A DNA stretch of 54,750 bases, taken from Alphaproteobacteria bacterium. GTDB taxonomy: Bacteria; Pseudomonadota; Alphaproteobacteria; CAAGCB01; CAG-977. The translations under genes and the position numbers were made by a program. The notes under the pieces were generated by a model, which was given only the letters and a program-made list of their open reading frames with translations, was not told the origin of the DNA and searched no databases. The DNA is taken from positions 1-54,750 of the forward strand of contig JAFVAT010000008.1 of assembly GCA_017480385.1 (NCBI GenBank), given 5' to 3'. This document shows positions 12,365-54,341 of this stretch, piece after piece; positions within the stretch are counted from its first letter, which is position 1; every line of letters begins with the position of its first letter.

Positions 12365-13273
12365 TTATTTTCTGTTCGCATATGCCTGAGAAGCAAATCT
12401 GCGGGCTAAACGGGAAAAGGGCAGGGACTGAACCCAAACTTTGCCGGGGCCGCTCAGCGTGGCAAAAAATATGCCGGATCCGCCGAAAATCTGCGATTTC
12501 AGACTGCCTGTGCCTTCAATATCAAAATAAACGGAAGGTTCAAAAGCAACCAAACAGCCGGCATCAACCTGTATTGTTTCGCCGTCCCTTAAATCAATCT
12601 CGGCAATTGATCCGCCGGCGTGAATGAAAACGACTCCGGAGCCGGATAAGCGCTGCATGATAAAGCCTGCACCGCCGAATAGAGCTGTGAAGATTTTCTT
12701 TTGAAAATAAACGCCAATATCAATGTTCGGCTGAGCACATAAAAAACTGTCCTTTTGGCAGATGATTTCCCCGTTGAAATCGTCAAGGGGGAGGGGAATG
12801 ATTTTCCCGGGATAAGGCGCGGAAAAGGTTACTTTTGCCGTTTTTTGAGAAGATGTATTGGAAAAAACGGATAGGAATGCCTTTTCTCCGGTCAGAACAC
12901 GTTTGCCGGCCCCCACCAGGCGTCCGAGCATGCCCTCCTGTTTGCCGCCCAGCCGGGCTTCCAATGTGACATCGCGGTCTTTGTAAATCAGCGCGCCGGG
13001 TTCGGCGATCACTGATTCCTGAGGCGCAAGATCGATTTCAACATACTGCATATCGTCACCGCGAATCCGAAAGGATAAGTCAGATTGAAATGTGAAAGAT
13101 GATGGCGGCAAAGAATCGCCGCCGTCTGTCAGAACGGAAAATTTATTCGCGGGCGTCCAAGCTGGCATACCTTCCCGCCAGACCAGGCAATTTGGGTGCT
13201 TTCTAATGAAATCAATAGCTTCTTCCGTACTGAAAGGACCATATTCCTGTTTGTCGAATAAACAATGCCACAT
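12365..13273 (-). CDS. GYF-domain / AIM24 family fusion protein
   Basis: 302 residues with two parts. Residues 1-50 (MWHCLFDKQEYGPFSTEEAI and REGMPAWTPANKF) fit a bacterial GYF_2 domain, a peptide-binding module recognised by the W-x-GPFS and W-x-x-GMxxW pattern. Residues about 65-290 fit the AIM24/TIGR00266 family, a beta-roll with repeated glycine turns (MLGRLVGAGKRVLTGEKAF, GGAGFIMQRLSGSGVVF, GGSGIFFATLSGPGKVWVQS). AIM24 proteins are of unknown biochemical role in bacteria; the mitochondrial relative affects inner-membrane organisation. There is no signal peptide, so it is probably cytoplasmic or membrane-associated. AAGGAA precedes the ATG. It is the last gene of the group that begins with the OmpA-like lipoprotein, 15 bases after the second EAL-like gene. 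The domain match is good; no function can be stated. Confidence 0.8.
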   Translation of the reverse strand: MWHCLFDKQEYGPFSTEEAIDFIRKHPNCLVWREGMPAWTPANKFSVLTDGGDSLPPSSFTFQSDLSFRIRGDDMQYVEIDLAPQESVIAEPGALIYKDRDVTLEARLGGKQEGMLGRLVGAGKRVLTGEKAFLSVFSNTSSQKTAKVTFSAPYPGKIIPLPLDDFNGEIICQKDSFLCAQPNIDIGVYFQKKIFTALFGGAGFIMQRLSGSGVVFIHAGGSIAEIDLRDGETIQVDAGCLVAFEPSVYFDIEGTGSLKSQIFGGSGIFFATLSGPGKVWVQSLPFSRLARRFASQAYANRK

Positions 13274-25727: not shown

Positions 25728-28700
25728 TTAGGCCTCTTTGTTAAAAATGCGGGACAGAAGCATATACAGCCGCCCGGCCTCCGATCCCAATAAAATACCC
25801 GTCAGAACGTCAGCCCGTTCATTTTCCTGCGCGCGGGAAAGAACGCCGTCAAATTCGGCAATATAGCGGGATACGTATTCTCTGAATTCGGCATTTTCCG
25901 TAAACATTTCCGTGATCTTGCGCACTTGCTGTTTGTCAAGCGCACGGGACAAATGCCTGATGAAAGCGCTTCTGTCACCGGAATAATAACGTTTCCATAA
26001 ATCCTCTTCAACATTCGGCGTATAAATGCGCGTTATGTCCACGCCCAAAGACTGCAGGCGTTCCAGAATAAAAGAAGCCTCATGCATAAAGCGGTTCGTG
26101 TCGGCTTCCTCTTTCTTTTTATCCAATGCGGAAATATATTCTTCCGCCGATCGGGACGCGGAAATCAAAGATTGGACCTGCCTGTTAAAGGCGCCGCCCA
26201 ATTTGAGGGACTGCGCTGAAATCTTTTCTCCCGATTCTTGAATTTCTTTGGCATTATCACGCATCACACTCAGCAAATTCTGCAGCCGTTTTAAAGCTTC
26301 ATCAGCGGCAATGGACAACAGATCGGACTGATCTACAAACTGTTCGCCCGACTTGCGCACTTCAACGGCAATGCGTTCGGAATTGCCCGCCACTTCGCTG
26401 ATCATAGAGCGCAAACGCTGGCCGGCCAAGTCAATTTGAATGACGCTTTTGTTGGACATTTCCTCAAATCCTTTGCCGATTTGCGCAATAGTGTCATTCA
26501 TATTTCGGACACGTACGCCGGCGTCTTCGGCGGTCTTGTTGAAATCAACGGCCCGTTCGCGCATCACTACGCTGAAGTTCTTGATCGCTTTTTGCGCCTC
26601 TTCGGAAATACGGGTCAACTGGTGCGATTGGACCAGGAAAGATTCACCCGTTGTTTCCAACTGTTCACGGGCAATTTCTCCGGCGGCTTCAACCATGTTG
26701 GCCTGTGCGGAAAATTCACTGCCGGCTGTTGTCAGCTCATTAATAACCTGTTCAGTCATCGTATTGAGCAAATGCGCTTTTTCCTCCAAGAATTGAGCGG
26801 CGGCCTGAGATCTTGCCAAACTGTCTTCCGCGGATTTGGACGCTTCTTCATTGCGCCGGCGCAGATTTTCACCCATGGCGTCCAGCTCGAAGCCGATGCG
26901 TGAAGAGGCCGCCAACAAATCATTCGTATTTTGACGCACGGCTTCGTTAATGCTGCGGATATGAGTCATAACATTTTCTGCGGCTTCCTTTAAGTAATTG
27001 ATTTGATTGCTTAAAGATGCTTCTCCCATGCGGGACTGCGTTGCGACGATATTGGCGACATCACCTAAATCAATGATATGACGCTGCATGGAATCGCGGA
27101 TCATAACCGCCTGTTGGGTTGACTTTGCCGATTGTTTCTGCAGATTATCCGTTTGTTCGGCAATTTCGTCCTGTAAAGCGGCAATACGCTGCATCAGATC
27201 GTCGGCGGAATATTTAAAATCATTTTGTTTGTTGGCCAAAATCTCAACAGATTCCACATTGCGCTGGCATATATTTTGAGTCGTATCTGACAATTTTTGC
27301 GCCGCTTCGGTAACGGCTGAACCGATTTCCGTGATCTTTAATTTCGCACTGTCGCTCAATGTCGTCAGATTTTCCGTCTGACGGGTCAGAGCCGTTCCAA
27401 CGGTTTCCAGCTGTGTAATTGTCATTTCTGAAGCATTGGCCAGTTCTTTTGTTTGAACGTTTAATCCTTCTTCGATCAGATGAATACGCGAAATCAGCCG
27501 TTCTAAATCTTTATCCGCCTGTTCGGATTGTTCGCGCAGCATGGCGGCGACGCGTGCGCTTTGTTCGATCAGCTTGTCGGACACGGCGGACAGCGTCGAA
27601 TTTTGCCTGTTAAATAAAGATTCGATCCGTTCAGAATATCCGGTGAGCTGAGACGACGCGTTTTGGGTTCCGTCAATTAAAGCCTGTGCATCTTCGGCTA
27701 ATTTACGGAACTGTTCGTCAATTTGCAGAACGGCTTTTTCGGATCGGGATTGAATTAATTCAGCGGAAATGTCCATTTGTGTTGTTTGGCGAGTAATTTC
27801 CGCACTCATTTCTTCCGCATAAGATGTCAACCGTTCAGCCGAAGAATCCAACAAAGCCTTGTGGCGTTCCAATTCTTCGCGCAGGGCATTATTGGCAATG
27901 ACTGTTTTTTGCGACGACATATCGAGCGCGTTGATTTTGTTCAATAACGAGACATCAATTTCGTTGACCCGATCCGTCACTTTTCCGGCCTGCGTCAACG
28001 TATCTTCAAATAAACGGGTTAATTTCAGAACGGTTTCTGCCGCGCGTGTGTCCAACAATTCGGCAATGTTTGTCAGATCAGTAGCCTGTTCCTTGAGGTT
28101 GGTCTTTGTTTCCTCTAATTTTGCGGCGGCATTGGAAACATACTTTTGCTGCTGGGCCAAAGAAGTTTCCGTCACAATGGCTTGTGAGACCAATGCGCCG
28201 GTTAAATCGGATAATTCTCCGGTTTGTTTGGTCAGTTTTTGGCAAGCCGTATCCGTTTTTTCTTCTGCGATAGCGATGCTGTCATTCAGTTCTGAAATGC
28301 CAGTCTGAATGCTTTCCTGCATCGTATAAAGACGTGTATTGGCATCGTCCAAAGCGCCGGTTAGTCTTTGCGTATGATCCGTCAGGGCTTCCGAAACGGA
28401 TTCGGCTCTTGTTTTCAGCTGAGAAACCGCTTGAGTTAGCAGGCCGGCACGATTTTCAATGTCTTCATCAACGGCCAGAATTTCACTGCGGGTTTGTTCT
28501 CCGATAGAGGCAATCCGATCCGCTTTTCCGTTTAAAGCGTCCGATACGGAGGAGATCTGTTCTACGGCAATTGAGGAAACAGCGTTGATTTCGTTAATAT
28601 ATGTATCCAATGTCGTTTCAATTGTTCTGAACCGCGAGATGATTTTTTCGGCCTCCTGATCTAATACCGCATTTTGTTCTTTAAAGGTCGCCTGAATTTG

Positions 28701-29894
28701 ATCGGCGGTCTGCATCAGCTGTCCGTCTTTATCGGAAATAGCTTCATTTTGTTTGGCAAAGATGTCTTCCAGCGTGTCAATGCGTTGTTCCAAGCCCGAC
28801 AGCATTTTTTCAGCGTTTGCCCGGGCTGTCTGCGTCGCGTCGTTTAATACGGCGGTTTGCATTTCCAGGTCGGATATAATGGCCGACATGTCATTTTCAA
28901 CGGCTTTGGCGGAATCGGTCAGCGTAACAGCATGATCTCTGATCGCTTCTTTGATTCGGGACGATTGTTCGTTAATAGTATCAAAAATGCGTGTGCCGGC
29001 TTCAACAAGAAAAGCGGTTTGCCGGTTGAGTTCCGCTGTTGCCGCAGCGGTCTGGCGTGTCAGAAGTTCGCGTGCGTTTTCCGAAGTGTTTTGCAGCAGG
29101 GCCTGCTGTTCCCGAATTTCCGAAGAAATCAGCATGGTTTTGTCCGATAATGTATCGCCGGTTTCCGTCAGCGTTTGAATGTCCGAACGCAAGGCGGAAT
29201 TAACGGAAGCGACCAGCTCGGAAAACTGATCCGCCGCGCTTTCAATTGCCTTCAGATTTGTTTCGAGCAGTTCTGCATTTTGTGTGGTCTGGCGGCTGAC
29301 CTGCAGGGTCGATTCGTCTAAAGAAACCGTTTGACGTTCAATTTTTTGTAAGGAAGAGGCTATGGTTTCTTCCAGAGTTTGGACGATTTGTGTTAATTCA
29401 TGAAGCCGTTCGCTCAGCGTTGTCTGCGTTTTACCGGTGCAGTCTTTTAATAATGCGTAAACCGTGTTCAGATCAGAGGTTTGTTGGCGAATATCGTCCA
29501 ACAGGGACTTGACATATAATTTGTTTTTCGCGCTGGGGTGCGTAAATTCAAAGATATAGCTCCGCAGTGTGGCGGCTTCTTTGACATATTTGCGCTGAGA
29601 CGAAAAGTAAACGGCGGCGATCCAAATAAAAGCAAACGGAGATAACGCGCCGGCGATAAAACTCATAAATTCGGGAGGCGTCATTTCAAAACGCGAAGCC
29701 CACCAGCCGCTGGCCAAAACATAGTCGGCAACCAGGAACCCCCAAACAACGCTTAAAACGGCGGCGATAACAGTCCAGCCGTCCATTCCTTTCGGCTGTG
29801 CCAGTCCGCCCGATCCGATTTCTTCGGAAAACATCATTTTCGCATCATCGGAAAAAGCTTCCGATTTGCTTTCAGCCTCTGTGTTCTGCGCCAT
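25728..29894 (-). CDS. Giant membrane-anchored coiled-coil protein, TipN/GPR-like
   Basis: 1388 residues. Two membrane spans near the N-terminus (WTVIAAVLSVVWGFLVADYV at about 40-60; SFIAGALSPFAFIWIAAVYF at about 82-102) with a short loop between, then about 1150 residues of nearly unbroken Gln/Thr/Ala/Glu-rich coiled coil with loosely repeating segments (SRIKEAIRDHAVTL, SARVAAMLREQSEQADKDLE), and a compact C-terminal domain from about 1260 (VDITRIYTPNVEEDLWKRYYSGDRSAF). This plan matches TipN, the Caulobacter new-pole landmark with two N-terminal spans and a coiled coil, and the Agrobacterium growth-pole ring protein. The resemblance is of architecture and composition; I cannot prove homology. 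HAMP and chemoreceptor signalling motifs are absent. Divergent from ileS and followed by a strong terminator, it is a single-gene transcript. Confidence 0.75.
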   Translation of the reverse strand: MAQNTEAESKSEAFSDDAKMMFSEEIGSGGLAQPKGMDGWTVIAAVLSVVWGFLVADYVLASGWWASRFEMTPPEFMSFIAGALSPFAFIWIAAVYFSSQRKYVKEAATLRSYIFEFTHPSAKNKLYVKSLLDDIRQQTSDLNTVYALLKDCTGKTQTTLSERLHELTQIVQTLEETIASSLQKIERQTVSLDESTLQVSRQTTQNAELLETNLKAIESAADQFSELVASVNSALRSDIQTLTETGDTLSDKTMLISSEIREQQALLQNTSENARELLTRQTAAATAELNRQTAFLVEAGTRIFDTINEQSSRIKEAIRDHAVTLTDSAKAVENDMSAIISDLEMQTAVLNDATQTARANAEKMLSGLEQRIDTLEDIFAKQNEAISDKDGQLMQTADQIQATFKEQNAVLDQEAEKIISRFRTIETTLDTYINEINAVSSIAVEQISSVSDALNGKADRIASIGEQTRSEILAVDEDIENRAGLLTQAVSQLKTRAESVSEALTDHTQRLTGALDDANTRLYTMQESIQTGISELNDSIAIAEEKTDTACQKLTKQTGELSDLTGALVSQAIVTETSLAQQQKYVSNAAAKLEETKTNLKEQATDLTNIAELLDTRAAETVLKLTRLFEDTLTQAGKVTDRVNEIDVSLLNKINALDMSSQKTVIANNALREELERHKALLDSSAERLTSYAEEMSAEITRQTTQMDISAELIQSRSEKAVLQIDEQFRKLAEDAQALIDGTQNASSQLTGYSERIESLFNRQNSTLSAVSDKLIEQSARVAAMLREQSEQADKDLERLISRIHLIEEGLNVQTKELANASEMTITQLETVGTALTRQTENLTTLSDSAKLKITEIGSAVTEAAQKLSDTTQNICQRNVESVEILANKQNDFKYSADDLMQRIAALQDEIAEQTDNLQKQSAKSTQQAVMIRDSMQRHIIDLGDVANIVATQSRMGEASLSNQINYLKEAAENVMTHIRSINEAVRQNTNDLLAASSRIGFELDAMGENLRRRNEEASKSAEDSLARSQAAAQFLEEKAHLLNTMTEQVINELTTAGSEFSAQANMVEAAGEIAREQLETTGESFLVQSHQLTRISEEAQKAIKNFSVVMRERAVDFNKTAEDAGVRVRNMNDTIAQIGKGFEEMSNKSVIQIDLAGQRLRSMISEVAGNSERIAVEVRKSGEQFVDQSDLLSIAADEALKRLQNLLSVMRDNAKEIQESGEKISAQSLKLGGAFNRQVQSLISASRSAEEYISALDKKKEEADTNRFMHEASFILERLQSLGVDITRIYTPNVEEDLWKRYYSGDRSAFIRHLSRALDKQQVRKITEMFTENAEFREYVSRYIAEFDGVLSRAQENERADVLTGILLGSEAGRLYMLLSRIFNKEA

Positions 29895-34662: not shown

Positions 34663-35181
34663 ATGAACGAAACAACCTTGATTTCGTTAGTTCAAAAGCT
34701 TCTTTCGAACAACGGTGTTTATCTGATAGGGACGATTATCGGATCGTTGCTGCTTGGATTTGTTATTTTATGTTTGTTAGCGTGGATTTCTGATAAACAA
34801 CGCGATATTATCAGCAGGTTTTATAAGCCGAAAAAAGTTCTGAATGCGAACGAAGAACAGTTTTTTATTCTGCTGCGGCAATCCGTTCCCGCGGATTATT
34901 ACGTTTTTCCGCACGTATCCATGAGGGCGCTGATTGAAACAAACCACTGGGATTTTTGGGCGCCGTTCAATTTAAAGCGTGTCGATTTTGTTATTTGCGG
35001 TCCGACATTGGAAATCATTTGTGTGATTGAATTGGAGGGCGAAAACCAAAAACGGCATTTGCGGCGTGATAAAATGCTTAAAAATGCCGGCGTACATGTA
35101 TTGCGTTATGATTTGCAGGACGACCTTTCATCGGATCGGATTCGTTTGAATATAGAAGAGCTTATAAAGGGAAGGTCTTGA
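34663..35181 (+). CDS. Membrane-anchored DUF2726 protein
   Basis: 172 residues: one membrane span at about 19-41 (LIGTIIGSLLLGFVILCLLAW) and a cytoplasmic domain fitting DUF2726 (LNANEEQFFILLRQSVPADY, KRVDFVICGPTLEIICVIEL, RRDKMLKNAGVHVLRYD). DUF2726 is related to the restriction-endonuclease-like fold; the Asp of RVDFVI and the Glu of VIELEG fit the D...ExK metal site, but the Lys of ExK is not evident. GGGAGG precedes the ATG by 6 bases. The end overlaps by 20 bases the end of the small convergent gene on the minus strand. Function unknown; possible roles are nucleic-acid processing at the membrane or a non-catalytic sensor. Confidence 0.75.
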   Translation: MNETTLISLVQKLLSNNGVYLIGTIIGSLLLGFVILCLLAWISDKQRDIISRFYKPKKVLNANEEQFFILLRQSVPADYYVFPHVSMRALIETNHWDFWAPFNLKRVDFVICGPTLEIICVIELEGENQKRHLRRDKMLKNAGVHVLRYDLQDDLSSDRIRLNIEELIKGRS

Positions 35182-35440
35182 TAGGATCGATTTCTTCTTT
35201 CAGGGGGCTTTTCGGATAAATGGTGACAGCCGTTTTTCTGATTTTATCATAGACGACGACATAAAGCTGATTTTGAAATTCGTATTCCCACAACGTGACC
35301 CTCAGCGACATTCGCCTGAGGAAATTCAGCTTGCCCGATCTGATTTTGCGGGCGATAAGGATCGGGTCTAACCGGACGCCAATTCTTTCTTCGCTTCTTC
35401 TCCTGAAATGTTTAATGGAGTTTTTTCGTTTGGAAACCAT
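35162..35440 (-). CDS. Small basic protein of unknown function at the end of the flagellar operon
   Basis: 92 residues, strongly basic at the N-terminus (MVSKRKNSIKHFRRRSEERI) followed by GVRLDPILIARKIRSGKLNF and a beta-rich core (EFQNQLYVVVYDKIRKTAVT). The HFxxRxxER opening and the VVVYD-K-x-x-TxI strand pair resemble the small DUF4258/RelE-like phage and toxin folds, but the match is only by pattern. It starts 8 bases after the stop of the membrane J-domain gene in the same direction and has no strong ribosome-binding site, so translation may be coupled. It overlaps the convergent DUF2726 gene at the 3' end. No antitoxin-like partner is visible. Confidence 0.55.
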   Translation of the reverse strand: MVSKRKNSIKHFRRRSEERIGVRLDPILIARKIRSGKLNFLRRMSLRVTLWEYEFQNQLYVVVYDKIRKTAVTIYPKSPLKEEIDPIKTFPL

Positions 35441-35448
35441 GTTTTGGT

Positions 35449-36513
35449 TCAGTCATTTGTCAGCAATATTTTGGAATGATAAGGCTGTGTGCCCGCGCCA
35501 AGACCTTTTGCCAGTTCCGAACGGCGGATAAAGACGACCAGGCCCTGATGAGTCATTGCCTGGACCCAGGGGGAGTGAGGGACGTATCCGGTCAGACGCA
35601 CAGTTGTTTGCGCCGGCAGAACGGCAATAACGCCGCTTTTGATGCTGGGGGCCTGATAAACGGAGGTCTGTTCCGCCGTTGTATGGTACAGCTGCGTTTC
35701 ATCTGACAAGTTAAATGCGAACGGCATAACGTTCTGCTGTTCATAATCTGTCAGAAAAGAACTGTCTCTGTCCGACAGCAGTCGGGGCAGATAAGGCGCG
35801 GTTAAAACCAGAAGGGCGATTAACAATGCGATAAAAGCGGGCAGGTAAACACGCAGTATGTCTGTCCAGCGGGGTCTCCAATAATCCGGTTCATATCGGT
35901 GGGAAGACGGCGGCAGGATATTTAAAAACATGTTTATTTTGGCCCGCTCCGGCGAATCAAGAGCAAAGCGGCGGGCCTGTTCGGCCAATGACTTGGCCAG
36001 GCCGTATCGCTTTTCGCTGTTAAAAGCCGCCGCATTTTGCATCAGCATGGCAAAGTTGTCGGAGGCCGGCATTTCTTGAAGGGCGCGGGCTTTTTTTAAC
36101 AATCGCCAGCTTTCGACCGGAGATATCAGAAATCTCCTCCAAATTTTTAAAGCTGTTTTAAATTGCCGGCGGGACGCGCAGGGGCGGCAAAAAACGCCGC
36201 CGTTTAGGGTGGTCCCGCCTTCGTCAAACAAAATGAAACGCGGTTGGTGCGCATGTCTGCCGCATAAACAGCACGGCATGAAATCCGCCGCGGCGTCCGG
36301 CACGTTATCGTAGGCTTTACGGGCGTCCGGATCTGTCAGAACCTGATACGCTTCGTTGATTTTCAGATAAATGGCCTTGGCCCCGGGATCAGAATTTTTA
36401 TCCGGGTGGTATAATTTGACCTCGCGGCGGAAAGCGTCCTTGATTTCTTTTTCCCCGACGTTTTCCGTTACGTGCAGTATAGCGTAATAGCCCTTTTTAT
36501 CCTTCACGCCCAT
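35449..36513 (-). CDS. Membrane J-domain protein with zinc ribbon and SH3-like tail
   Basis: 354 residues. A J domain at about 7-70 carries the HPD tripeptide (YHPDKNSDPGAKAIYLKINE), so it should stimulate an Hsp70 ATPase. A CCLC...CRPC pair (81-112) may hold zinc. A membrane span at about 221-243 (PAFIALLIALLVLTAPYLP) is followed by a C-terminal beta-rich domain at about 275-345 (TSVYQAPSIKSGVIAVLPAQ, VRLTGYVPHSPW) that looks like a bacterial SH3 domain, presumably periplasmic. It overlaps the FliK-like gene by 10 bases, which places it in the flagellar operon. GAGGAG lies better for a GTG at 36505-36507 than for the ATG, so the true start may be two codons later. A role in flagellar or envelope assembly is inference. 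Confidence 0.78.
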   Translation of the reverse strand: MGVKDKKGYYAILHVTENVGEKEIKDAFRREVKLYHPDKNSDPGAKAIYLKINEAYQVLTDPDARKAYDNVPDAAADFMPCCLCGRHAHQPRFILFDEGGTTLNGGVFCRPCASRRQFKTALKIWRRFLISPVESWRLLKKARALQEMPASDNFAMLMQNAAAFNSEKRYGLAKSLAEQARRFALDSPERAKINMFLNILPPSSHRYEPDYWRPRWTDILRVYLPAFIALLIALLVLTAPYLPRLLSDRDSSFLTDYEQQNVMPFAFNLSDETQLYHTTAEQTSVYQAPSIKSGVIAVLPAQTTVRLTGYVPHSPWVQAMTHQGLVVFIRRSELAKGLGAGTQPYHSKILLTND

Positions 36514-38462
36514 ACTCCTCGTTTGGTTTCCTGTTCAATTTGTTCGGTCAGAAGAATGAACTGATCCGTGTGATCGACTTTGACCGTTCCGGTATAATTT
36601 AACGCCGATAGCGTTTGTGTAAAAATACGGCGGACGGCATCATCAAAATCGACAGGCAAATCCTTTTGATGCCGCATGATCAAATCGAACCGGCGTTCGC
36701 TGCGGTGAGCCAATCCGTCCATTTGCAGCTTTCCCAAGCGGGTCAGAGTCAGGTCAAGCACAAACCGCACCGCATTTTGTTTCGCGTTCGTCCCTTTGGA
36801 AGGAGCAGCTTCCTCCTGCGGTTTTTGCAGGTAAAGGGAAACCGGTTCGACGATTGCTCCGGATAAGAAGGGAACCGTCCACCCTTTCCAGGCGGTCCGA
36901 CCGTCCGATGCCTTTTTCGAAGAAACGGCAAAATCTTTTTCCATTTTCTGAAACAGGCGCTGTCCTTTTTCGCCCAAGCTTTGTATTGCCGCTGCATTGG
37001 CTTCTCCGATCAGGGAAGCCAGCGGAACATTTTGAGTGCTTGCAGAGATAAAAGATAAAATTTGTGCCGGCAGTTTATTTCCGATTTGTGGCAGAACATT
37101 TTTAACGGCTTCGAAAGCAGAAGGCGAATCAGACTGCTGCAGCAGGTTCAGCGTTTCGCTGATGCTTTGAAAAATGTTTTTTTCCGCCGCTTCCGGAACT
37201 GTGAAAAAAAGCGGCTCGATTGTTTGGGTAATTTGAACGGTTACCGGCGTTAAATGCGGCAGGTGGATTTCCTCCTCCAAAGCCAAAACACCGACTTCCG
37301 TAACGACAAGAGGCGCGGAACCGGTTTTAAAATCAAAAACAACCCCCTTCAGAGGGATTTGTACGGCTGACTTTTCCGATGTCTTTTCGGCTGCTGCGGC
37401 TGTAACGGGCTCAGTTTCTTCCTTTATAACGGGCAAAACAGTCGATTCCAGCGTTTCCGAGAAGGAGGAAGAGGGCGTTTGAGGAGAAACGGCGGGGACG
37501 AAATCGGTTGGAGCCGCCTCTTTTTCCGTCGGCATTTCGATTGAAGGAAGGGCTGGCGTTTCCTGTCGGGACAGCGGGCTGTTGAAAAGAAGAGAGGGCG
37601 TTTCCGCCGGACTGTCGGGAACAGGCGTTTGAGACGGAGCTGAAGGAGAAGAAGCGGTTACTGCCGCTGTTGATTCCGAATTAACGGCAGGTGTGCCCTT
37701 TAAAGAATCGGTTAAGACGACCTGCGGACTGCCGGCTGACTGTATGGCGGTTTGTTCCGGTTCGGCTGTTTGCGGAACCGGCATTTCCTCCGGCATGGGA
37801 GCCGCGGACGCATCAGGAAGAGGAGACAGCATTGACTGCGCCGGCTGAGCCGAGGCCGTGGGCTGCGGTGTCGAAATCTGCGGGTCAGATATTGGCGGGA
37901 CGGGCGCATTTGGCGCGGGGGAAAGTTCAATCTGAACCGTTTGATGCGGCGTTAAAGGGGGCAGCTGTTCTTCGTTTGAAGCAGTCAGTTCATTCATTAA
38001 GGCCGTGATTTGTTCGGAAACGGAATGCAGGACAAAGGCTCTGAGAGGAATGGATTTCTTTGCCGACGGAGAAATAATGTCGGTTCGGGGACGTTCGGCG
38101 GCAACTGTCTGCAAGTTTTGGGCCGCCTTTTTTATGTCGGGCAAAGGAGCCGAAAAATGAATGCGGACAGAAAAAGTCTTTTTTAAATCGGCAGGTAAAA
38201 TCTTGATGCTGACCGGTGTTGAAACGCGCAGCACATGGGCCAGTTTAACCGGAACGGCCAGCTCTTTTCCGTTCGGGAGAGTCAATTGCATAATCGGCAG
38301 AGCGGAAGATGTCTCCGGAGGCGTAAGAACAGCGGGCAAAACAAAACCTGCCGGCAGCTCCGTCATTTCCGGCGGCGCATCGGGTAAAGGAATGACTGTT
38401 GACGCTGACGCAGTTTGAGCAGCCGGCCCTGAATTTTGCAAGGAAACAGTAGGGCTGCTCAT
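36504..38462 (-). CDS. FliK-like flagellar hook-length-control family protein
   Basis: 652 residues. Most of it is Pro/Ala/Ser/Thr/Glu-rich and probably disordered (about 180-380). The N-terminal 120 or so residues form a folded part (MQLTLPNGKELAVPVKLAHV). The C-terminus (about 545-640) resembles the FliK C-terminal switch domain, with AVRFVLDLTLTRLGKLQMDG followed by RFDLIMRHQKDLP and a final amphipathic helix and strand. A second, more typical fliK is at 52356-54341, so this one probably has another role; in related bacteria a protein of this kind follows flhG and remains unnamed. It lies 9 bases after flhG and overlaps the J-domain gene. It is likely cytoplasmic or exported through the flagellar secretion system. 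Confidence 0.65.
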   Translation of the reverse strand: MSSPTVSLQNSGPAAQTASASTVIPLPDAPPEMTELPAGFVLPAVLTPPETSSALPIMQLTLPNGKELAVPVKLAHVLRVSTPVSIKILPADLKKTFSVRIHFSAPLPDIKKAAQNLQTVAAERPRTDIISPSAKKSIPLRAFVLHSVSEQITALMNELTASNEEQLPPLTPHQTVQIELSPAPNAPVPPISDPQISTPQPTASAQPAQSMLSPLPDASAAPMPEEMPVPQTAEPEQTAIQSAGSPQVVLTDSLKGTPAVNSESTAAVTASSPSAPSQTPVPDSPAETPSLLFNSPLSRQETPALPSIEMPTEKEAAPTDFVPAVSPQTPSSSFSETLESTVLPVIKEETEPVTAAAAEKTSEKSAVQIPLKGVVFDFKTGSAPLVVTEVGVLALEEEIHLPHLTPVTVQITQTIEPLFFTVPEAAEKNIFQSISETLNLLQQSDSPSAFEAVKNVLPQIGNKLPAQILSFISASTQNVPLASLIGEANAAAIQSLGEKGQRLFQKMEKDFAVSSKKASDGRTAWKGWTVPFLSGAIVEPVSLYLQKPQEEAAPSKGTNAKQNAVRFVLDLTLTRLGKLQMDGLAHRSERRFDLIMRHQKDLPVDFDDAVRRIFTQTLSALNYTGTVKVDHTDQFILLTEQIEQETKRGVWA

Positions 38463-38471
38463 GGGCGGCTC

Positions 38472-39287
38472 TTATTCTTTGGTCAGACGCGCGGCAATGG
38501 CCAATACGTCTTCGGCAGCCTCCGTACTGGGGTGACGGCGCAGAATCGATGTCTGGTTGCGGATAGCGTCACGAACACGCGTATCCCGACGGATTACACC
38601 GGCCAAAGGTGGAGAAATGCGTAGAAAACCTTGGCAGGCTTTTAATAGGGTTGTATAGGTTCTTTCCCCTTCACGCGCAGAATTGGCCGAATTGACAACA
38701 ATATTAATGTTCGGCTGCTGCTGTTCCATGCAGATCATTTTGATAAAAGCATAAGCGTCTGTCAGAGAAGTCGGTTCGTCTGTGCAGACAATCAGCAGAG
38801 TTGCTGCCGAAGAAGCGAATAAGCGCACAGGCCTTTCTACGCCGGCGCCTAAATCGACGATGACCCGGTCATATCCGCCGGCCAATAAGCGCAGATCATC
38901 ATTGATCAGCTGCAGACGGCTGAGCGGCACATTGGACAGACTGCCCGATCCCGACCGACCGGCAATGATGTCAAAGTTGCCTTCCTCATAATGGCAAATC
39001 GCTTGGTTCAAAGTGATCTTTCCGGCGATGACGCTGCCTAAATCGTGTGTCGGCATCAATCCCAGCTGGATATCGATGTTCGCCAGTCCCAGATCCCCGT
39101 CAAACAGCAGCGTTTTCAGGCCGCTTTGGGCAAAAGCATGGGCCATGGTGATCGAAAACCAAGTTTTTCCGACGCCGCCTTTTCCGGAAGCAACGGCAAT
39201 CATATTGCGGACCTGCGGGCGCATAACCTTTCTGGGCGCCAAAGCCAGTATCTGTTCAGAGGAGTTTTGCGTTGGTGACGTATTCAT
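38472..39287 (-). CDS. flhG: MinD-like ATPase FlhG (FleN)
   Basis: 271 residues. The deviant Walker A motif SGKGGVGKTWFSITMAHAF (about residues 33-51) identifies the ParA/MinD family; LLFDGDLGLANIDIQLG and VIVDLGAGVE give the other nucleotide-binding motifs. Next to flhF it is FlhG, which limits flagellar number and, with FlhF, determines position. The N-terminus (TSPTQNSSEQILALAP) carries a DQ-like QIL segment as used to stimulate FlhF. The gene overlaps flhF by 4 bases, so the two are translationally coupled. The C-terminus lacks an obvious membrane-targeting helix. Confidence 0.92.
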   Translation of the reverse strand: MNTSPTQNSSEQILALAPRKVMRPQVRNMIAVASGKGGVGKTWFSITMAHAFAQSGLKTLLFDGDLGLANIDIQLGLMPTHDLGSVIAGKITLNQAICHYEEGNFDIIAGRSGSGSLSNVPLSRLQLINDDLRLLAGGYDRVIVDLGAGVERPVRLFASSAATLLIVCTDEPTSLTDAYAFIKMICMEQQQPNINIVVNSANSAREGERTYTTLLKACQGFLRISPPLAGVIRRDTRVRDAIRNQTSILRRHPSTEAAEDVLAIAARLTKE

Positions 39288-40270
39288 GATTTTTTCCTTG
39301 TAGCAGAATCGGATTCTTCCGATGACATCAAAAGCAGTCTTGCCAGAGAAACTGCATTGATCGGGGACAATCCCCTGGTAACGTTCGGACTCATGCTGGC
39401 TTCACATAAAGTTAAGCGTCCCGCGTCCGCTGCGGCCAAGACGCCGCCGAAACGCCGCGCCGCATCTAATCGCGTCGCCAGCAGGTAAACAGCGCCGGCT
39501 TCGGCAAAAGCCTCTGCCGTTTCCATGGATTCCAGCGGGTCAACGCCGGCAGGCATGACCATAACGGGTAAAACGTCTGCCGCTTCGATATAAGCGGTCA
39601 GGTATTCCATATCGCTGGGCTGGAACGGATTGAAAGCCGGCATGTCAATAAAGATTAAATCGCATGTTTTGCGCAAAGCCGTGATATGCGCCTGCATGTT
39701 TTCCGGGGACCGCGCCTTTAACAAAGTGATGTCCAGAATGTTGGTGAAAGCGACTAATTGTTCAGCCGCGCCGGCTCGCACGATATCCGCTGAAATCAAG
39801 CCGACCCGATGACCGGACAGACACGCGCGGGTCGCCAGTTTGCCGGTGATGACCGTTTTGCCGACACCGGCCGCACCGGTCAGCATAAAGGCCTGTCCTT
39901 TAATTTGTTCGGGCAAAGGGTGAAAGCTGAATACCGTATCCAGTGCGGAGGCAAAAGAAACCAAATCGTTTTTATTTTTGGATTCTTTGACATGCAGGAC
40001 GATTTTTTCGATCAGGGTGGAAGGCAGGGCATGATAACCGAGCGTTTCTCGAATAGTTTGATGCAAATCCGTTTCCTGCGGTTCTTCGCTGTTGTATAAC
40101 CGTTCGATTTCTTCATCACGGTCGTTTTCTTCAATCGCGGCTGTCAGACGAACGCCCGCGCCGGTTCCTAACCGCTGCGTCGATACGATGATCGCGTTTT
40201 CCCCCAGCTCATGGCGCAATTGGTCCATAGCTTCGGACATTGTCGGGGCGGTGTAGGTTTTAATTTTCAT
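39284..40270 (-). CDS. flhF: Flagellar biosynthesis GTPase FlhF
   Basis: 328 residues, shorter than many FlhF proteins because the basic linker is short. The N-terminus MKIKTYTAPTMSEAMDQLRH and LGENAIIVSTQRLG is diagnostic for FlhF. The SRP-type NG domain follows: FMLTGAAGVGKTVITGKLAT (G1), GLISADIVRAGAAEQL, and DLIFIDMPAF in the place of DTAG. The usual G4 TKLD reads TRLD. FlhF recruits early flagellar parts to the pole in polar flagellates. It is flanked by flhA and flhG in the usual order. Confidence 0.93.
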   Translation of the reverse strand: MKIKTYTAPTMSEAMDQLRHELGENAIIVSTQRLGTGAGVRLTAAIEENDRDEEIERLYNSEEPQETDLHQTIRETLGYHALPSTLIEKIVLHVKESKNKNDLVSFASALDTVFSFHPLPEQIKGQAFMLTGAAGVGKTVITGKLATRACLSGHRVGLISADIVRAGAAEQLVAFTNILDITLLKARSPENMQAHITALRKTCDLIFIDMPAFNPFQPSDMEYLTAYIEAADVLPVMVMPAGVDPLESMETAEAFAEAGAVYLLATRLDAARRFGGVLAAADAGRLTLCEASMSPNVTRGLSPINAVSLARLLLMSSEESDSATRKKS

Positions 40271-40280
40271 CTATGGTTCT

Positions 40281-42401
40281 CTAAACTTGTCCTACGGTTC
40301 TGATTTTTGCGCGCGGGTGAATCTCATTTTGCGATATTACCACAGTTGTGGGACGAAAGCGCTCAATAATTGAACGCACATACGGACGAATGCCGGGACT
40401 GGTCAGCAAAACCGGAGCTTCTCCGCGGGCTGCCTGATCTTCAAAGACCTGACGGATCCTTAAAATAAATTTTTGAATTTGGCTGGGCGGCATGGATAAT
40501 TGCTTTTCTTCGCCCTGTCCGGAAAGAGACTCGGCAAAGTTTTGCTCCCATTCGCCGGATAAAGTGACCAGCGGAATAATCCCGTCCGGTCCCGCGACGG
40601 CATTTGAAATCTGACGCGATAAACGCGTGCGGACATGTTCCGTAATGATCATCAAGCTTTGCGTGACCGAACAGGCCTCTGAAATGCCTTCCAAAATCGT
40701 CGGCAGATCGCGGATCGAAACACGCTCTGTCAGCAGGTTTTGCAGAACGCGTTGCACGCCGCCGATCGTGATGCGCTTCGGAATCAGTTCCTCGACCAGT
40801 TTCTGTTGATCCTTGTCCAGCTCATGCAGCAGTTTCTGCGTTTCCGTATAGCTGAGCAGTTCGGACATGTTGGCTTTGACTAATTCGGTGATATGCGTCG
40901 TGATGATTGTCGGACAATCGACAACCGTATAGCCGCGGAACATCGCGTCTTCCCGTGCCGTCATATCGATCCACATGGCGGCCAGACCGAATGTCGGCTC
41001 TTTTGTTTTTTCGCCCTGCAGCGTGATCTCTTCGCCGCGCGGATCCATGACCAGCAGCTTGTTCGGGCGCAGTTCCCCGCGACCGGCCTCCGTTTCTTTG
41101 ATGTAAATTACGTACGTATTCGGCGGCAGGCGCATGTTGTCCTGAATGCGCACTGACGGCATCACAAAGCCCATTTCCAATGCCAAAGCCCGCCGCAGAG
41201 CCTTGATCTGATCGGTCAGGCGGCGGTTGGACGTGTCATTGATTAAAGAAAGCAGACTGTACCCCAGTTCCAAACGCACCAAATCCATTTTCAGTACGCT
41301 GGAAATCGGTTCTTCGACAATGGGCGGCGGCGTTTCCGGCTGCTGTTCCAACAGCATGCGTTCTTCTTCTTCCTTGGCTTTTTGCTGCTGACGGATCAGA
41401 AAATAGGCCGTCGCACCGGTGACAACGCTTAAAAACATAAAAGGGGCTGCCGGCGTGCCGGGAAGGGTGGCCAGCATGAACGCCAGAAAAGAGGTCATGC
41501 CAAGCGCTTTCGGATAATGTGACAGCTGACCGAACAAAACTTTTTCCGTTCCGCCCGAAATGCCCGCTTTGGACACCATAATACCGGCGGCGACAGAAAT
41601 GATCAGCGCGGGAATCTGAGAGACTAAGCCGTCGCCGACCGTCAGGCGCATGTAAGTGTTCGCCGCTTTCATGAACGGCATATTCTGCTGCAAAATACCG
41701 ATTAAAATACCGGCAATAATGTTGATCGCCGTAATGACCAAACCGGCAATCGCGTCCCCGCGCACGAATTTCGAAGCACCGTCCATCGCACCGTAAAAAC
41801 TGGATTCCTGCGATAGTTCATCACGGCGCTTGCGGGCTTCCGGTTCATCAATCAAGCCGGAAGACAAATCCGCGTCGATCGCCATTTGCTTGCCGGGCAT
41901 TGCGTCTAAAGCGAAACGGGCGGCGACTTCCGCGATACGACCGGAACCTTTGGTAATCACCATAAAGTTGACCAACACCAAAATGGCAAACACGATGACT
42001 CCGATGATGAAATTGCCGCTCATGATAAATCCGCCGAACGCGGCAATGACGTGGCCGGCGGCTTCAGGACCGCGATAGCCATTGGCTAAAATCAAGCGGG
42101 TGGAGGACAGGTTCAGAGCCAGTCGGAACAACGTTGTAATCAACAGCACCAAAGGAAAGGACGTGAACTGAATCGGCTTTTCGATAAAAATAGAAGTCAT
42201 CAAAACCAGTACGGAAAACGTCAAAGACAGGGCCAAAGCTACGTCCAACAGCCACGGCGCCAATGGCAAAATCAGAATGACCAGCATCAAAACGATGCCT
42301 AATGCCAACGCAATATCCGACCGTTTTCCTATGGAAAAGAGGCCTTGTTTCAGGTTGGTCGGCGTTGGAATAGAGCCTGCTTTGACGGGTTCGTTTGCCA
42401 T
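40281..42401 (-). CDS. flhA: Flagellar export gate protein FlhA
   Basis: 706 residues. The N-terminal half has about eight membrane spans (SDIALALGIVLMLVILILPL and so on) and the FHIPEP family signature in the cytoplasmic loop, RFALDAMPGKQMAIDADLSS and GAMDGASKFVRGDAIAG. The C-terminal cytoplasmic domain from about residue 355 forms the nonameric ring that receives export substrates and chaperones. AAAGGA precedes the ATG. It lies 9 bases after flbD and 10 before flhF. Together with fliF-fliG it forms the basal body and export gate. Confidence 0.97.
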   Translation of the reverse strand: MANEPVKAGSIPTPTNLKQGLFSIGKRSDIALALGIVLMLVILILPLAPWLLDVALALSLTFSVLVLMTSIFIEKPIQFTSFPLVLLITTLFRLALNLSSTRLILANGYRGPEAAGHVIAAFGGFIMSGNFIIGVIVFAILVLVNFMVITKGSGRIAEVAARFALDAMPGKQMAIDADLSSGLIDEPEARKRRDELSQESSFYGAMDGASKFVRGDAIAGLVITAINIIAGILIGILQQNMPFMKAANTYMRLTVGDGLVSQIPALIISVAAGIMVSKAGISGGTEKVLFGQLSHYPKALGMTSFLAFMLATLPGTPAAPFMFLSVVTGATAYFLIRQQQKAKEEEERMLLEQQPETPPPIVEEPISSVLKMDLVRLELGYSLLSLINDTSNRRLTDQIKALRRALALEMGFVMPSVRIQDNMRLPPNTYVIYIKETEAGRGELRPNKLLVMDPRGEEITLQGEKTKEPTFGLAAMWIDMTAREDAMFRGYTVVDCPTIITTHITELVKANMSELLSYTETQKLLHELDKDQQKLVEELIPKRITIGGVQRVLQNLLTERVSIRDLPTILEGISEACSVTQSLMIITEHVRTRLSRQISNAVAGPDGIIPLVTLSGEWEQNFAESLSGQGEEKQLSMPPSQIQKFILRIRQVFEDQAARGEAPVLLTSPGIRPYVRSIIERFRPTTVVISQNEIHPRAKIRTVGQV

Positions 42402-42410
42402 TTATATCCT

Positions 42411-43739
42411 TTATCCGAAATCGTTCGGCGCGGCGGGAACCTCTGTTCCTTCTTCCATATACTGTTTCAGCTTGTTGCGCAGCGTGCGAATGGAGATGCC
42501 TAAAATATTCGCCGCATGCGTGCGGTTGCCCAAAGTATGCTTTAATGTGCTGATAATTAAATCTTTTTCGACATCGGCAACGGTGCGCCCGACCATACTG
42601 TCCGAAGACGATCCTGTTTCCTGCTGCGCCGACTGTTCCATTGATCCGGTCAGCATAATCGCTTCGGGCTCGATTTCTTTGCCGGTTGACAGCAATACGG
42701 CGCGGTGAATCGTGTTTTCCAATTCGCGCACATTGCCCTGCCAGCCATAGGACAAAAGCATCTCCGCGGCTTTTGAAGACAAGGGCTTGACAATAATGTC
42801 ATTCATTTCCGAATACTTTTTAATGAAGTAATCAGCCAGCGGCAGAATATCGTCCTTCCGCTGGCGCAGAGAGGGAATCGCGATATTGACAACGTTTAAT
42901 CGGAAATAAAGGTCCTCACGGAATGTCTTGTTTAAAACTTCCTGTTGCATGTTGCGGTTGGACGTTGCTAAAATTCGCACGTCGACATCAATCGGCTTTT
43001 TGCCGCCGATCCGGTCGATTTGACGTTCCTGTAAAACGCGCAGCAGTTTGGCCTGCAGACGAATATCCATTTCGCTGATTTCGTCCAAAAGCAAAGTGCC
43101 GCCGTCGGCTTCTTCAAATTTGCCGATCCGGCGGGCGACAGCACCGGTAAAGGCGCCCTTTTCATAGCCGAACAGCTCTGATTCCAAGAGATTTTCGGGA
43201 ATAGCCGCGCAGTTGACCGCGACAAACGGCGCCGAAGAACGTTTGGAGTTGGCGTGAATGTATTTGGCGATCACTTCTTTACCCGTGCCGGATTCGCCGG
43301 TAATCAGGACGCTGGCTGTAGAAGGCGCAATCTGTTTGGCCAGCTGCAGCACTTTTTCCATAGCGGCATCTTTGCAAATGACAGGCGTTGTCTGCATCGA
43401 AAAGGCCGATAAAACCGCGCCGATCAATTCCGCGTCCGGCGGCAGAGGAATATATTCTTTTGCGCCGGCTTTAATCGCTTTGACTGCCGCCCGCGCATCG
43501 GCGGCAACCCCGCAGGCGACGACAGGGACGCAGATGCGTTCGCTGTTCAGCCGTTCTACCAAAGAATAAATGTCCAGCTTTACGTCCGCCATGATCAGGT
43601 CGGCGCTCTGTCCGCCGCGCAGCAGCTCTAAAGCCTGATCTATGGATTCGGCCAAAGCAACAGATCCGCCCTTTTTGATAGCGATCTGACTGGCGGCTCC
43701 GATCTGTCCGTCCATAGCTCCGATTAACAACAGACGCAT
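42411..43739 (-). CDS. flbD: Sigma-54-dependent flagellar regulator FlbD
   Basis: 442 residues. The N-terminal receiver-like domain (1-115) lacks the acidic pair of real receivers (LLLIGAMDG where VVDDE is usual), as in Caulobacter FlbD, which is controlled by FliX rather than by classical phosphotransfer. The AAA+ domain holds Walker A GESGTGKEV, the sigma-54 contact loop GAFTGA, and Walker B TLLLDEISEMD. A Fis-type helix-turn-helix ends the protein (NRTHAANILGISIRTLRNKL). It sits between fliN and flhA, its usual place, and is the expected activator of the sigma-54 promoter before fliK (54381-54398). Autoregulation of this operon is possible but no site is seen. Confidence 0.94.
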   Translation of the reverse strand: MRLLLIGAMDGQIGAASQIAIKKGGSVALAESIDQALELLRGGQSADLIMADVKLDIYSLVERLNSERICVPVVACGVAADARAAVKAIKAGAKEYIPLPPDAELIGAVLSAFSMQTTPVICKDAAMEKVLQLAKQIAPSTASVLITGESGTGKEVIAKYIHANSKRSSAPFVAVNCAAIPENLLESELFGYEKGAFTGAVARRIGKFEEADGGTLLLDEISEMDIRLQAKLLRVLQERQIDRIGGKKPIDVDVRILATSNRNMQQEVLNKTFREDLYFRLNVVNIAIPSLRQRKDDILPLADYFIKKYSEMNDIIVKPLSSKAAEMLLSYGWQGNVRELENTIHRAVLLSTGKEIEPEAIMLTGSMEQSAQQETGSSSDSMVGRTVADVEKDLIISTLKHTLGNRTHAANILGISIRTLRNKLKQYMEEGTEVPAAPNDFG

Positions 43740-52355: not shown

Positions 52356-54341
52356 TTATACTCTGATATTCAGCGCATAGCGCCCTGAAATGCTTAACGT
52401 GCCGGCGGATACGGGCAAGTCGCTGTACAGATCATCGTCCGTTTCTGCCGCGGCGGAATGGTGTTGGTGCCGGGACTGCTGATGTTCGTCGTTGTAACGT
52501 TCCCCGCGGTAATTAAAGCTGAACGACTGATCATTCAGGTCAAACCCGCTGTCAGTCAAAGCCTGCTTTAACGCGGTCAGGTCCGACTGCAGCAAATCGA
52601 GCGTTTCCGCCCGTGCCGTGCTGAGGACGGCCTTCATTGTTCCGTCTTTGCCGATTTCCAAATGAATTTTGATCGTGCCCAATTCTTTGGGCTTAACGAT
52701 GATATCAATCTTGTCCAAACCGTCTTTCAGCGCCTTTTTGATGCTGACTTTGATTTGGTCGGCCAGCTCGTTTGCCGGAATGTTTTTCTGAACAGGCACA
52801 TTTCCGGATACCGCTTTGCCGCGCAGCTCGTGTGAAGCGGAAAGGACCGCTGTCGGAGCGCCGGAGATGTTTGGAGATGCGGCCTCCATAACGGCGCTTT
52901 CCGTTTGAACCGCTGTTTGGGACGCGGGCAGGGCTTTGTTTTCGGCATAAAGGACCGCGACCCCGTTCGGCTGATCCGTTTGTTCTGCCTGCTTTTCTGA
53001 AGAAGGCGCAAACTTGGCTTGGTCAATATGCGGCGTTAATGTCTTTTCTGACGGCGCGGCGGCAGTTTCCGTATCGGCAAAGGCAGGCGCTGCTGTGTTT
53101 GTGTCGTTTTCCTCCGCCTTTTTTATTCCGGTTATGCGGGTGTTTTCCCTTTGCGGCAAAATGAAGGCTTTGGCTGCGGGTGTCTGCGTGCTGACCGTTA
53201 TGGCAATGTTAGTGTTTGTCGGTAATTCCCGCGCCAGCTCTTCGGCCTGTCGGTGCGCTTCAGAAGGAGAGGCAGCCTCTTTAAAAGAGTCAAAATTAAA
53301 AGTGTCGGGCAAATCGGCCAGAGGCAGATCTGCGGAAATATTTTCCTTTGCGGCAGGCGCCGTTTTGACGGGAGCAGAGGCGATGCTTTGAGGCTGTGGT
53401 GTCCGATCTGCCGGAACTGTTGGGGTGTGTTCCTGCGGCAGCGGAGAGGTCAAAATTTGTTCCTGCGCCTTTTCCGGTTTTATAGAATCGAAGGCCTCTT
53501 TTTGGTAAAAGGATGCGTTTTCTTGTATTTCAGCCGGCGCTTGTGTCGGGATAAAATCGGAAGAAGCCGATATTTCCGGCGCTTCGTCGGGCAAAGCGTC
53601 CAAAGAGGGGTGTCTGTCAATGATTTGCGGCTGAATGGTTGAGGCCGTATTTTCCTGCGGCTGACTGTCGGCGGGCTGAATTTGCACCGGGGCCGCCTTT
53701 TCCGCGACGACAGCAGGTTGCTCTTGAGGCCGGGGAGCAGCGGCAATGGTCTGCAAGGCGGAATTGATTAAAATGTCTGCCGCTGTTAATTCCTCAGAGG
53801 AATCAAAAGAAGGATCCTGCCGCGAAAAAGTTTGTTCCGGCATGCAAAGTGTCTCAAAATCGGCGGAGAGTGTTTTTTTCTGTACAGCATTTTGTTCTGT
53901 TTGAGTCTGCGCGGTAATTTGAGTGGGGACAATATTTTCCTGCGTCGGAATCTTTTGCCCATCGGAAACTGCGGCAGCAGGAGCTGTGGCCTTGAGTTCA
54001 TCGGCTTTTCTTAATTTTTCGCTGGCTCTTGTACGTTTGATATGAAGCTTGACAATTTTGACATTTTCCCGCGACGGCATGCCTTTCTTTAATTCCTTTA
54101 AAGAAGAGGCCGCTTCCGCCCGTGCGCTGAGCGTATTAAAGAAAGTGTCGGCGCTTTTTTCCGTTTTGCCTGTTCTGACCTGATCCAAAGCCTGCAGGAA
54201 GGCTTCCCCTGTTTTTAAAGAGCTTTGCTCGGCTGAAGAAGCAACAGGAACGCTGTTCTGCCCTGCATTTGAAAATAAGCTTTCTGCGGCAGAAGCGCTT
54301 GGATTTGTACTCATCAGCAAATTGAAAACCGATAAATCCAT
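52356..54341 (-). CDS. fliK: Flagellar hook-length control protein FliK
   Basis: 661 residues. The N-terminal two-thirds is Ala/Pro/Gln/Glu/Thr-rich and disordered, as expected of the molecular ruler. The C-terminal Flg_hook domain (about 520-610) is clear: LADQIKVSIKKALKDGLDKI, IDIIVKPKELGTIKIHLEIG (the PxxLGxIxIxL core), LDLLQSDLTALKQALTDSGF. A His-rich tail follows (HQQSRHQHHSAAAE). It is exported during hook assembly and switches the export gate (FlhB) to filament substrates when the hook reaches its length. AAGGA lies 8 bases before the ATG. It heads an operon with flgD and flgE behind a sigma-54 promoter. Confidence 0.93.
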   Translation of the reverse strand: MDLSVFNLLMSTNPSASAAESLFSNAGQNSVPVASSAEQSSLKTGEAFLQALDQVRTGKTEKSADTFFNTLSARAEAASSLKELKKGMPSRENVKIVKLHIKRTRASEKLRKADELKATAPAAAVSDGQKIPTQENIVPTQITAQTQTEQNAVQKKTLSADFETLCMPEQTFSRQDPSFDSSEELTAADILINSALQTIAAAPRPQEQPAVVAEKAAPVQIQPADSQPQENTASTIQPQIIDRHPSLDALPDEAPEISASSDFIPTQAPAEIQENASFYQKEAFDSIKPEKAQEQILTSPLPQEHTPTVPADRTPQPQSIASAPVKTAPAAKENISADLPLADLPDTFNFDSFKEAASPSEAHRQAEELARELPTNTNIAITVSTQTPAAKAFILPQRENTRITGIKKAEENDTNTAAPAFADTETAAAPSEKTLTPHIDQAKFAPSSEKQAEQTDQPNGVAVLYAENKALPASQTAVQTESAVMEAASPNISGAPTAVLSASHELRGKAVSGNVPVQKNIPANELADQIKVSIKKALKDGLDKIDIIVKPKELGTIKIHLEIGKDGTMKAVLSTARAETLDLLQSDLTALKQALTDSGFDLNDQSFSFNYRGERYNDEHQQSRHQHHSAAAETDDDLYSDLPVSAGTLSISGRYALNIRV

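Follow-up and report, generated by a model that had tools for sequence, protein, structure and literature searches.

A membrane J-domain protein encoded behind flhG in alphaproteobacterial flagellar operons

A gene for a membrane J-domain protein, here called dnaJ, was found behind flhG and fliK2 in a flagellar operon on an alphaproteobacterial contig stretch of 54,750 nucleotides (the window), and its position 3' of flhG is conserved in related genomes. We propose, tentatively, that its product may be a membrane-anchored Hsp70 co-chaperone which acts with FlhG, and through FlhG with FlhF, in the placing and counting of flagella.

Operon structure and domains of the dnaJ product

The genes on the minus strand of the window follow the order sigma-54 activator, flhA, flhF, flhG, fliK2, dnaJ and a 92-aa basic ORF (Table 1). 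The activator, which lies upstream of flhA, is taken here to be of the FlbD/FleQ type. Nine bases separate the end of flhG from the start of fliK2, fliK2 shares its last 10 bases with the start of dnaJ, and a gap of 8 bases lies between dnaJ and the 92-aa ORF, in agreement with the layout given in the initial annotation. Comparison of the window with genome G003 revealed purifying selection on dnaJ (dN/dS about 0.11) and on fliK2 (about 0.14), and both are real genes. Elsewhere, the window encodes a 1388-aa repetitive protein, probably coiled-coil and without a clear Pfam family (25728-29894), and a protein with a GYF_2 domain fused to an AIM24 domain (12365-13273).

Table 1. Coordinates of the operon genes, of the dnaJ segments and of related features in the window.
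Feature	Position	Strand	Basis or remark
sigma-54 activator	42411..43739	-	PF00158, PF02954
flhA	40281..42401	-	PF00771, E=1.3e-257
flhF (SRP-type GTPase)	39284..40270	-	PF00448
flhG (MinD-type ATPase)	38472..39287	-	probable functional partner of dnaJ
fliK2	36504..38462	-	652 aa; family without a name in the libraries searched
fliK2, conserved C-terminal domain	36507-36902	-	
dnaJ	35449..36513	-	354 aa; membrane J-domain/CxxC/SH3b protein
dnaJ, J domain (residues 9-69)	36307..36489	-	PF00226, E=2.9e-20
dnaJ, two CxxC pairs (residues 81-84 and 109-112)	36178..36273	-	sequence
dnaJ, helical TPR-like stretch (residues about 149-199)	35917..36069	-	conserved in alignments
dnaJ, single transmembrane helix (residues about 219-240)	35794..35859	-	hydrophobicity
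dnaJ, bacterial SH3 (SH3_3) domain (residues 284-330)	35524..35664	-	E=0.0027
92-aa basic ORF	35162..35440	-	orphan, judged outside the system
genuine fliK	52356-54341		same genome as fliK2

The dnaJ product had been annotated as a membrane J-domain protein, and a J domain with its HPD motif, two CxxC pairs and one hydrophobic helix are indeed present. The J domain scores 72.5 bits against a Pfam cut-off of 27.8 and carries the HPD motif at residues 36-38, so that by sequence the product is a J-domain (Hsp40) protein. All linked homologues examined keep the HPD motif. The CxxC pairs form a probable zinc ribbon; they are missing from the dnaJ genes of family f48 (genomes G058, G182, G277 and G353) and are thus not essential to the linked clade described below. 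The helical stretch gave a single weak match to TPR_12, in the relative at locus L062 (E=0.05). A Kyte-Doolittle maximum of 2.59 over 19 residues marks the membrane helix, and the charge bias around it is slight (3 vs 2 Lys+Arg). The predicted topology places the N-terminus with the J domain inside and the C-terminus with the SH3 domain outside.

A probable periplasmic SH3-like domain had also been proposed. In relatives, SH3_3 exceeds the Pfam cut-off of 27 bits at L065 (27.7) and L062 (29.6), and it matches 8 of 11 homologues (best E 2.8e-6). The match in the window protein itself falls below the threshold (18.3 bits), and the periplasmic side is a prediction. Beyond DnaJ and SH3_3, no Pfam family matched the dnaJ product at E up to 1. 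A profile search of solved structures returned nothing significant for the tails of dnaJ and fliK2, and the single-sequence structure model of the dnaJ product was poor (mean pLDDT 44.5). In the proteins from L028, L035 and L036, the SH3 part has a CxxC that is probably periplasmic (YQAPCLDCG or a similar sequence); the window protein does not have it. The best NCBIfam match of the dnaJ product is TopJ (TIGR03835/NF037946), the J-domain protein that serves the polar motility organelle of Mycoplasma. This match concerns the J domain alone, covers 65 of the 871 positions of TIGR03835 with 60 bits vs a cut-off of 512, and leaves nothing else in common.

Distribution and phylogeny of dnaJ

A total of 12 genomes of the order were compared, the window genome among them. 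All 12 possess flhA and a genuine fliK of the Flg_hook type located elsewhere in the genome. The dnaJ gene is present in nine of them, each time directly 3' of flhG-fliK2 or of a fliK2 remnant. Genome G005 keeps dnaJ despite a badly eroded fliK2; the 459-aa ORF at the fliK2 position (L032 6879-8258) shows residual similarity alone, which may denote fast decay or relaxed selection. G004 has lost dnaJ and retains flhF, flhG and fliK2, G011 has flhF-flhG without fliK2 or dnaJ, and all four genes are missing behind flhA in G010. Because G004 and G011 do without it, dnaJ is dispensable, and its absence from G004, together with the unlinked relatives found elsewhere, cautions against an essential role. 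Between G006 and G007, dnaJ (L033 6071-7129, L034 11437-12495) has a dS of 0.37, against 1.07 for the flanking flhG and 1.68 for fliK2, a sign of recent dnaJ allele exchange between congeners.

In a class-wide search with a profile built from dnaJ outside its J domain, 20 of 385 alphaproteobacterial genomes matched; a broader profile matched 39, the extra ones being mostly weak SH3-only matches. The order flhA-flhF-flhG-fliK2-dnaJ was found in G182 and G277, and likewise in G061, where two dnaJ genes stand in tandem. G058 shows flhA-flhG-fliK2-dnaJ with flhF missing there, G353 has the flhG-dnaJ pair alone, and in G054 dnaJ adjoins fliK2. Two J-domain/SH3 genes in tandem were thus observed in G061 and also in G013 (L063 7675-9862; L062 1-1673). 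Weak dnaJ-tail matches from G126, G256, G300, G364 and others, consisting mainly of the SH3 part or forming long branches, were left out.

In the phylogenetic tree, the tested members of the window family, f48 and the first copy from G061 form one clade with support of 100/99, and every one of its 12 entries lies 3' of flhG. The linkage spans three families within one clade, and the initial proposal of a dedicated membrane J-domain/SH3 protein with linkage to flagellar genes is supported by this survey of gene neighbourhoods; a lack of conserved linkage, which had been named as a refutation, was not observed. The dnaJ gene of G054 falls outside the clade with weak support, so the association may predate the clade, or it may have arisen twice. 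Relatives from G321, G276 and G227 also lie outside the clade and have no flagellar neighbours in the stretches read. The genes 3' of dnaJ vary by lineage (DUF2726, a second dnaJ, others), and dnaJ is thus the end of the conserved block. A literature search found no report of a J protein encoded among the flagellar genes of Alphaproteobacteria.

In one genome, G353, dnaJ appears to be separated from the flagellum. Its assembly is rated 100% complete and yielded no match for FlhA, FliG, Flg_hook or fliK2, and the organism most likely has no flagella. Its dnaJ is nevertheless intact and overlaps a divergent flhG, whose product (L065 10677-11474) has an altered Walker A motif, GSKAAGKTW, with GKTW kept and the usual GKGGVGKT form lost. 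Since the flhG-dnaJ pair survives without detectable flagellar genes, dnaJ appears to track FlhG and not the flagellum. Taken together, the patterns in G353, G058 and G010, few genomes as they are, suggest that the partner of dnaJ is FlhG and not FlhF, FliK2 or the flagellum itself.

The fliK2 family and the 92-aa ORF

The fliK2 product consists of a Pro/Ala/Ser-rich N-terminal part and a conserved C-terminal domain. It had been described as a second FliK-like protein with a FliK-type C-terminus, in addition to a genuine fliK. The genuine fliK is there; the FliK-type C-terminus was not confirmed. In FliK as in fliK2, a compact C-terminal domain follows a long N-terminal part rich in Pro, and both occur in a flagellar context, but no fliK2 locus gave a match to Flg_hook (PF02120) at E up to 5, and hhalign of fliK2 against FliK gave probabilities of about 0.3-2% (below 3%) vs 100% for a split FliK-versus-FliK control. 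With a broad FliK set, whose strands were chosen by HMM, the score was insignificant, although the weak alignment kept its register along most of the domain. By these comparisons fliK2 is not recognisable as a FliK, though the two may share a remote ancestor. No Pfam or NCBIfam model matched the window protein or the other members scanned, and prediction of the C-terminal part without relatives was poor (mean pLDDT 46.3).

The fliK2 family occurs in 129 of the 385 genomes, and FlhA is present in 120 of these vs 220 of 385 overall (Fisher p=7.7e-27). Of the 30 best loci, 23 show flhG immediately upstream of fliK2; for several of the other seven the flank is too short to judge. Most fliK2 genes have no dnaJ behind them. 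About a third of the sampled Alphaproteobacteria carry behind flhG a gene that the libraries searched do not name.

The 92-aa ORF had been counted in the tail of the flagellar operon, and it proved to be an unrelated orphan. The other 11 genomes of the order, PHROGs and phages yielded no relative, and its G+C content is 0.43 vs 0.52 for dnaJ. In G003, dnaJ directly abuts a convergent DUF2726 gene instead, and the ORF was rejected as a member of the operon or system.

Known systems and possible function

The closest known systems come from other bacteria. SflA of Vibrio alginolyticus crosses the membrane once, has its J domain in the cytoplasm and another domain in the periplasm, and regulates flagellation in interplay with FlhF/FlhG; it represses flagellation when FlhF/FlhG are absent, and its deletion from the wild type is silent (PMC7226244). 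The dnaJ product resembles SflA in its J domain and membrane helix, with the topology predicted here. However, SflA has an N-terminal periplasmic TPR/Sel1-like domain and a C-terminal cytoplasmic J domain (PMC7226244), the reverse of the N-terminal J domain and C-terminal SH3b domain of the dnaJ product. SflA is moreover said to be Vibrio-specific and is encoded outside flagellar clusters, and its recognition of the flagellation state has been called enigmatic (PMC7226244), whereas dnaJ is located inside the flhA-flhF-flhG operon. FipA, described for gammaproteobacteria, is a single-pass membrane protein with a cytoplasmic DUF2802; its gene lies beside the flhA-flhF-flhG operon, it occurs only with FlhF/FlhG, and it can recruit FlhF (PMC11620751). 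It shares with dnaJ the genomic slot and the single membrane helix, but DUF2802 is absent from the dnaJ product and FipA has neither J nor SH3 domain. By sequence the dnaJ product belongs to neither family, though it is possibly similar in working. The initial annotation had suggested that it would be a new accessory to flagellar assembly. A dedicated and linked protein is supported; with SflA as precedent (PMC7226244), a membrane J-domain protein in flagellation is not wholly new.

We propose that the cytoplasmic J domain would bring DnaK to FlhG/FlhF or to the nascent basal body at the membrane, and that the periplasmic SH3b domain would tie the protein to the cell wall itself or to some site associated with it, e.g. 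the pole. The dnaJ product would then work like Vibrio SflA in the genomic slot of FipA, with a domain layout different from both. The partnership with FlhG, the recruitment of DnaK, the contact with the wall and the direction of the effect are what we infer from sequence and gene context, and gene neighbourhood is association rather than contact.

Three other explanations were weighed against this proposal. The dnaJ product might be a membrane J protein with a general role in envelope stress or housekeeping, carried in the operon as a mere passenger, as its unlinked relatives in G321, G276 and G227 and its dispensability in G004 would permit. Linkage persists in all 12 entries of a deep clade with strong support although the genes behind dnaJ vary, which makes this rather unlikely in our judgement. 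A dedicated co-chaperone of FliK2, which would hold the long Pro-rich protein in an unfolded state or pass it to the export gate, would account for the immediately upstream, overlapping fliK2 and for the adjacency of the two genes in f1, in three genomes of f48, in G061 and in G054, and fliK2 could be the real partner of dnaJ in most cases. We consider this role unlikely, given dnaJ without fliK2 in G353 and with an eroded one in G005, fliK2 without dnaJ in G004, and the many genomes with fliK2 that mostly have no dnaJ behind it.

The initial annotation had considered recruitment of DnaK to the basal body, here taken as an aid to assembly in general, or sensing of wall penetration, here taken as that by the rod. 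A probably periplasmic SH3b domain and linkage to flagellar genes would fit either role. However, the flhG-dnaJ pair of G353 persists without flagellar marker genes, two of the 12 flagellated genomes of the order have neither dnaJ nor fliK2, another one lacks dnaJ, and no rod or P-ring gene adjoins dnaJ. The phylogenetic pattern points to FlhG instead, and we regard these roles as very unlikely. A bolder form of the FlhG proposal, which we hold to be quite improbable, would join FlhG and the membrane J protein in a module that can exist apart from the flagellum. In it, FlhG as a positioning ATPase of the MinD type would be remodelled in state or location by a dedicated, wall-linked Hsp70 co-chaperone and, as in G353, be kept for another polar task after the loss of flagella.

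The placement of dnaJ suggests that flagellar positioning in these bacteria may be chaperone-controlled. This bears on how the pole anchors FlhF and FlhG and how the two are switched there, and the linkage of dnaJ to flhG yields a testable partner. If the proposal is true, recruitment of Hsp70 would be a recurring element of flagellar placement, by way of a second, differently built membrane J protein that is tied to flhG over deep divergence.
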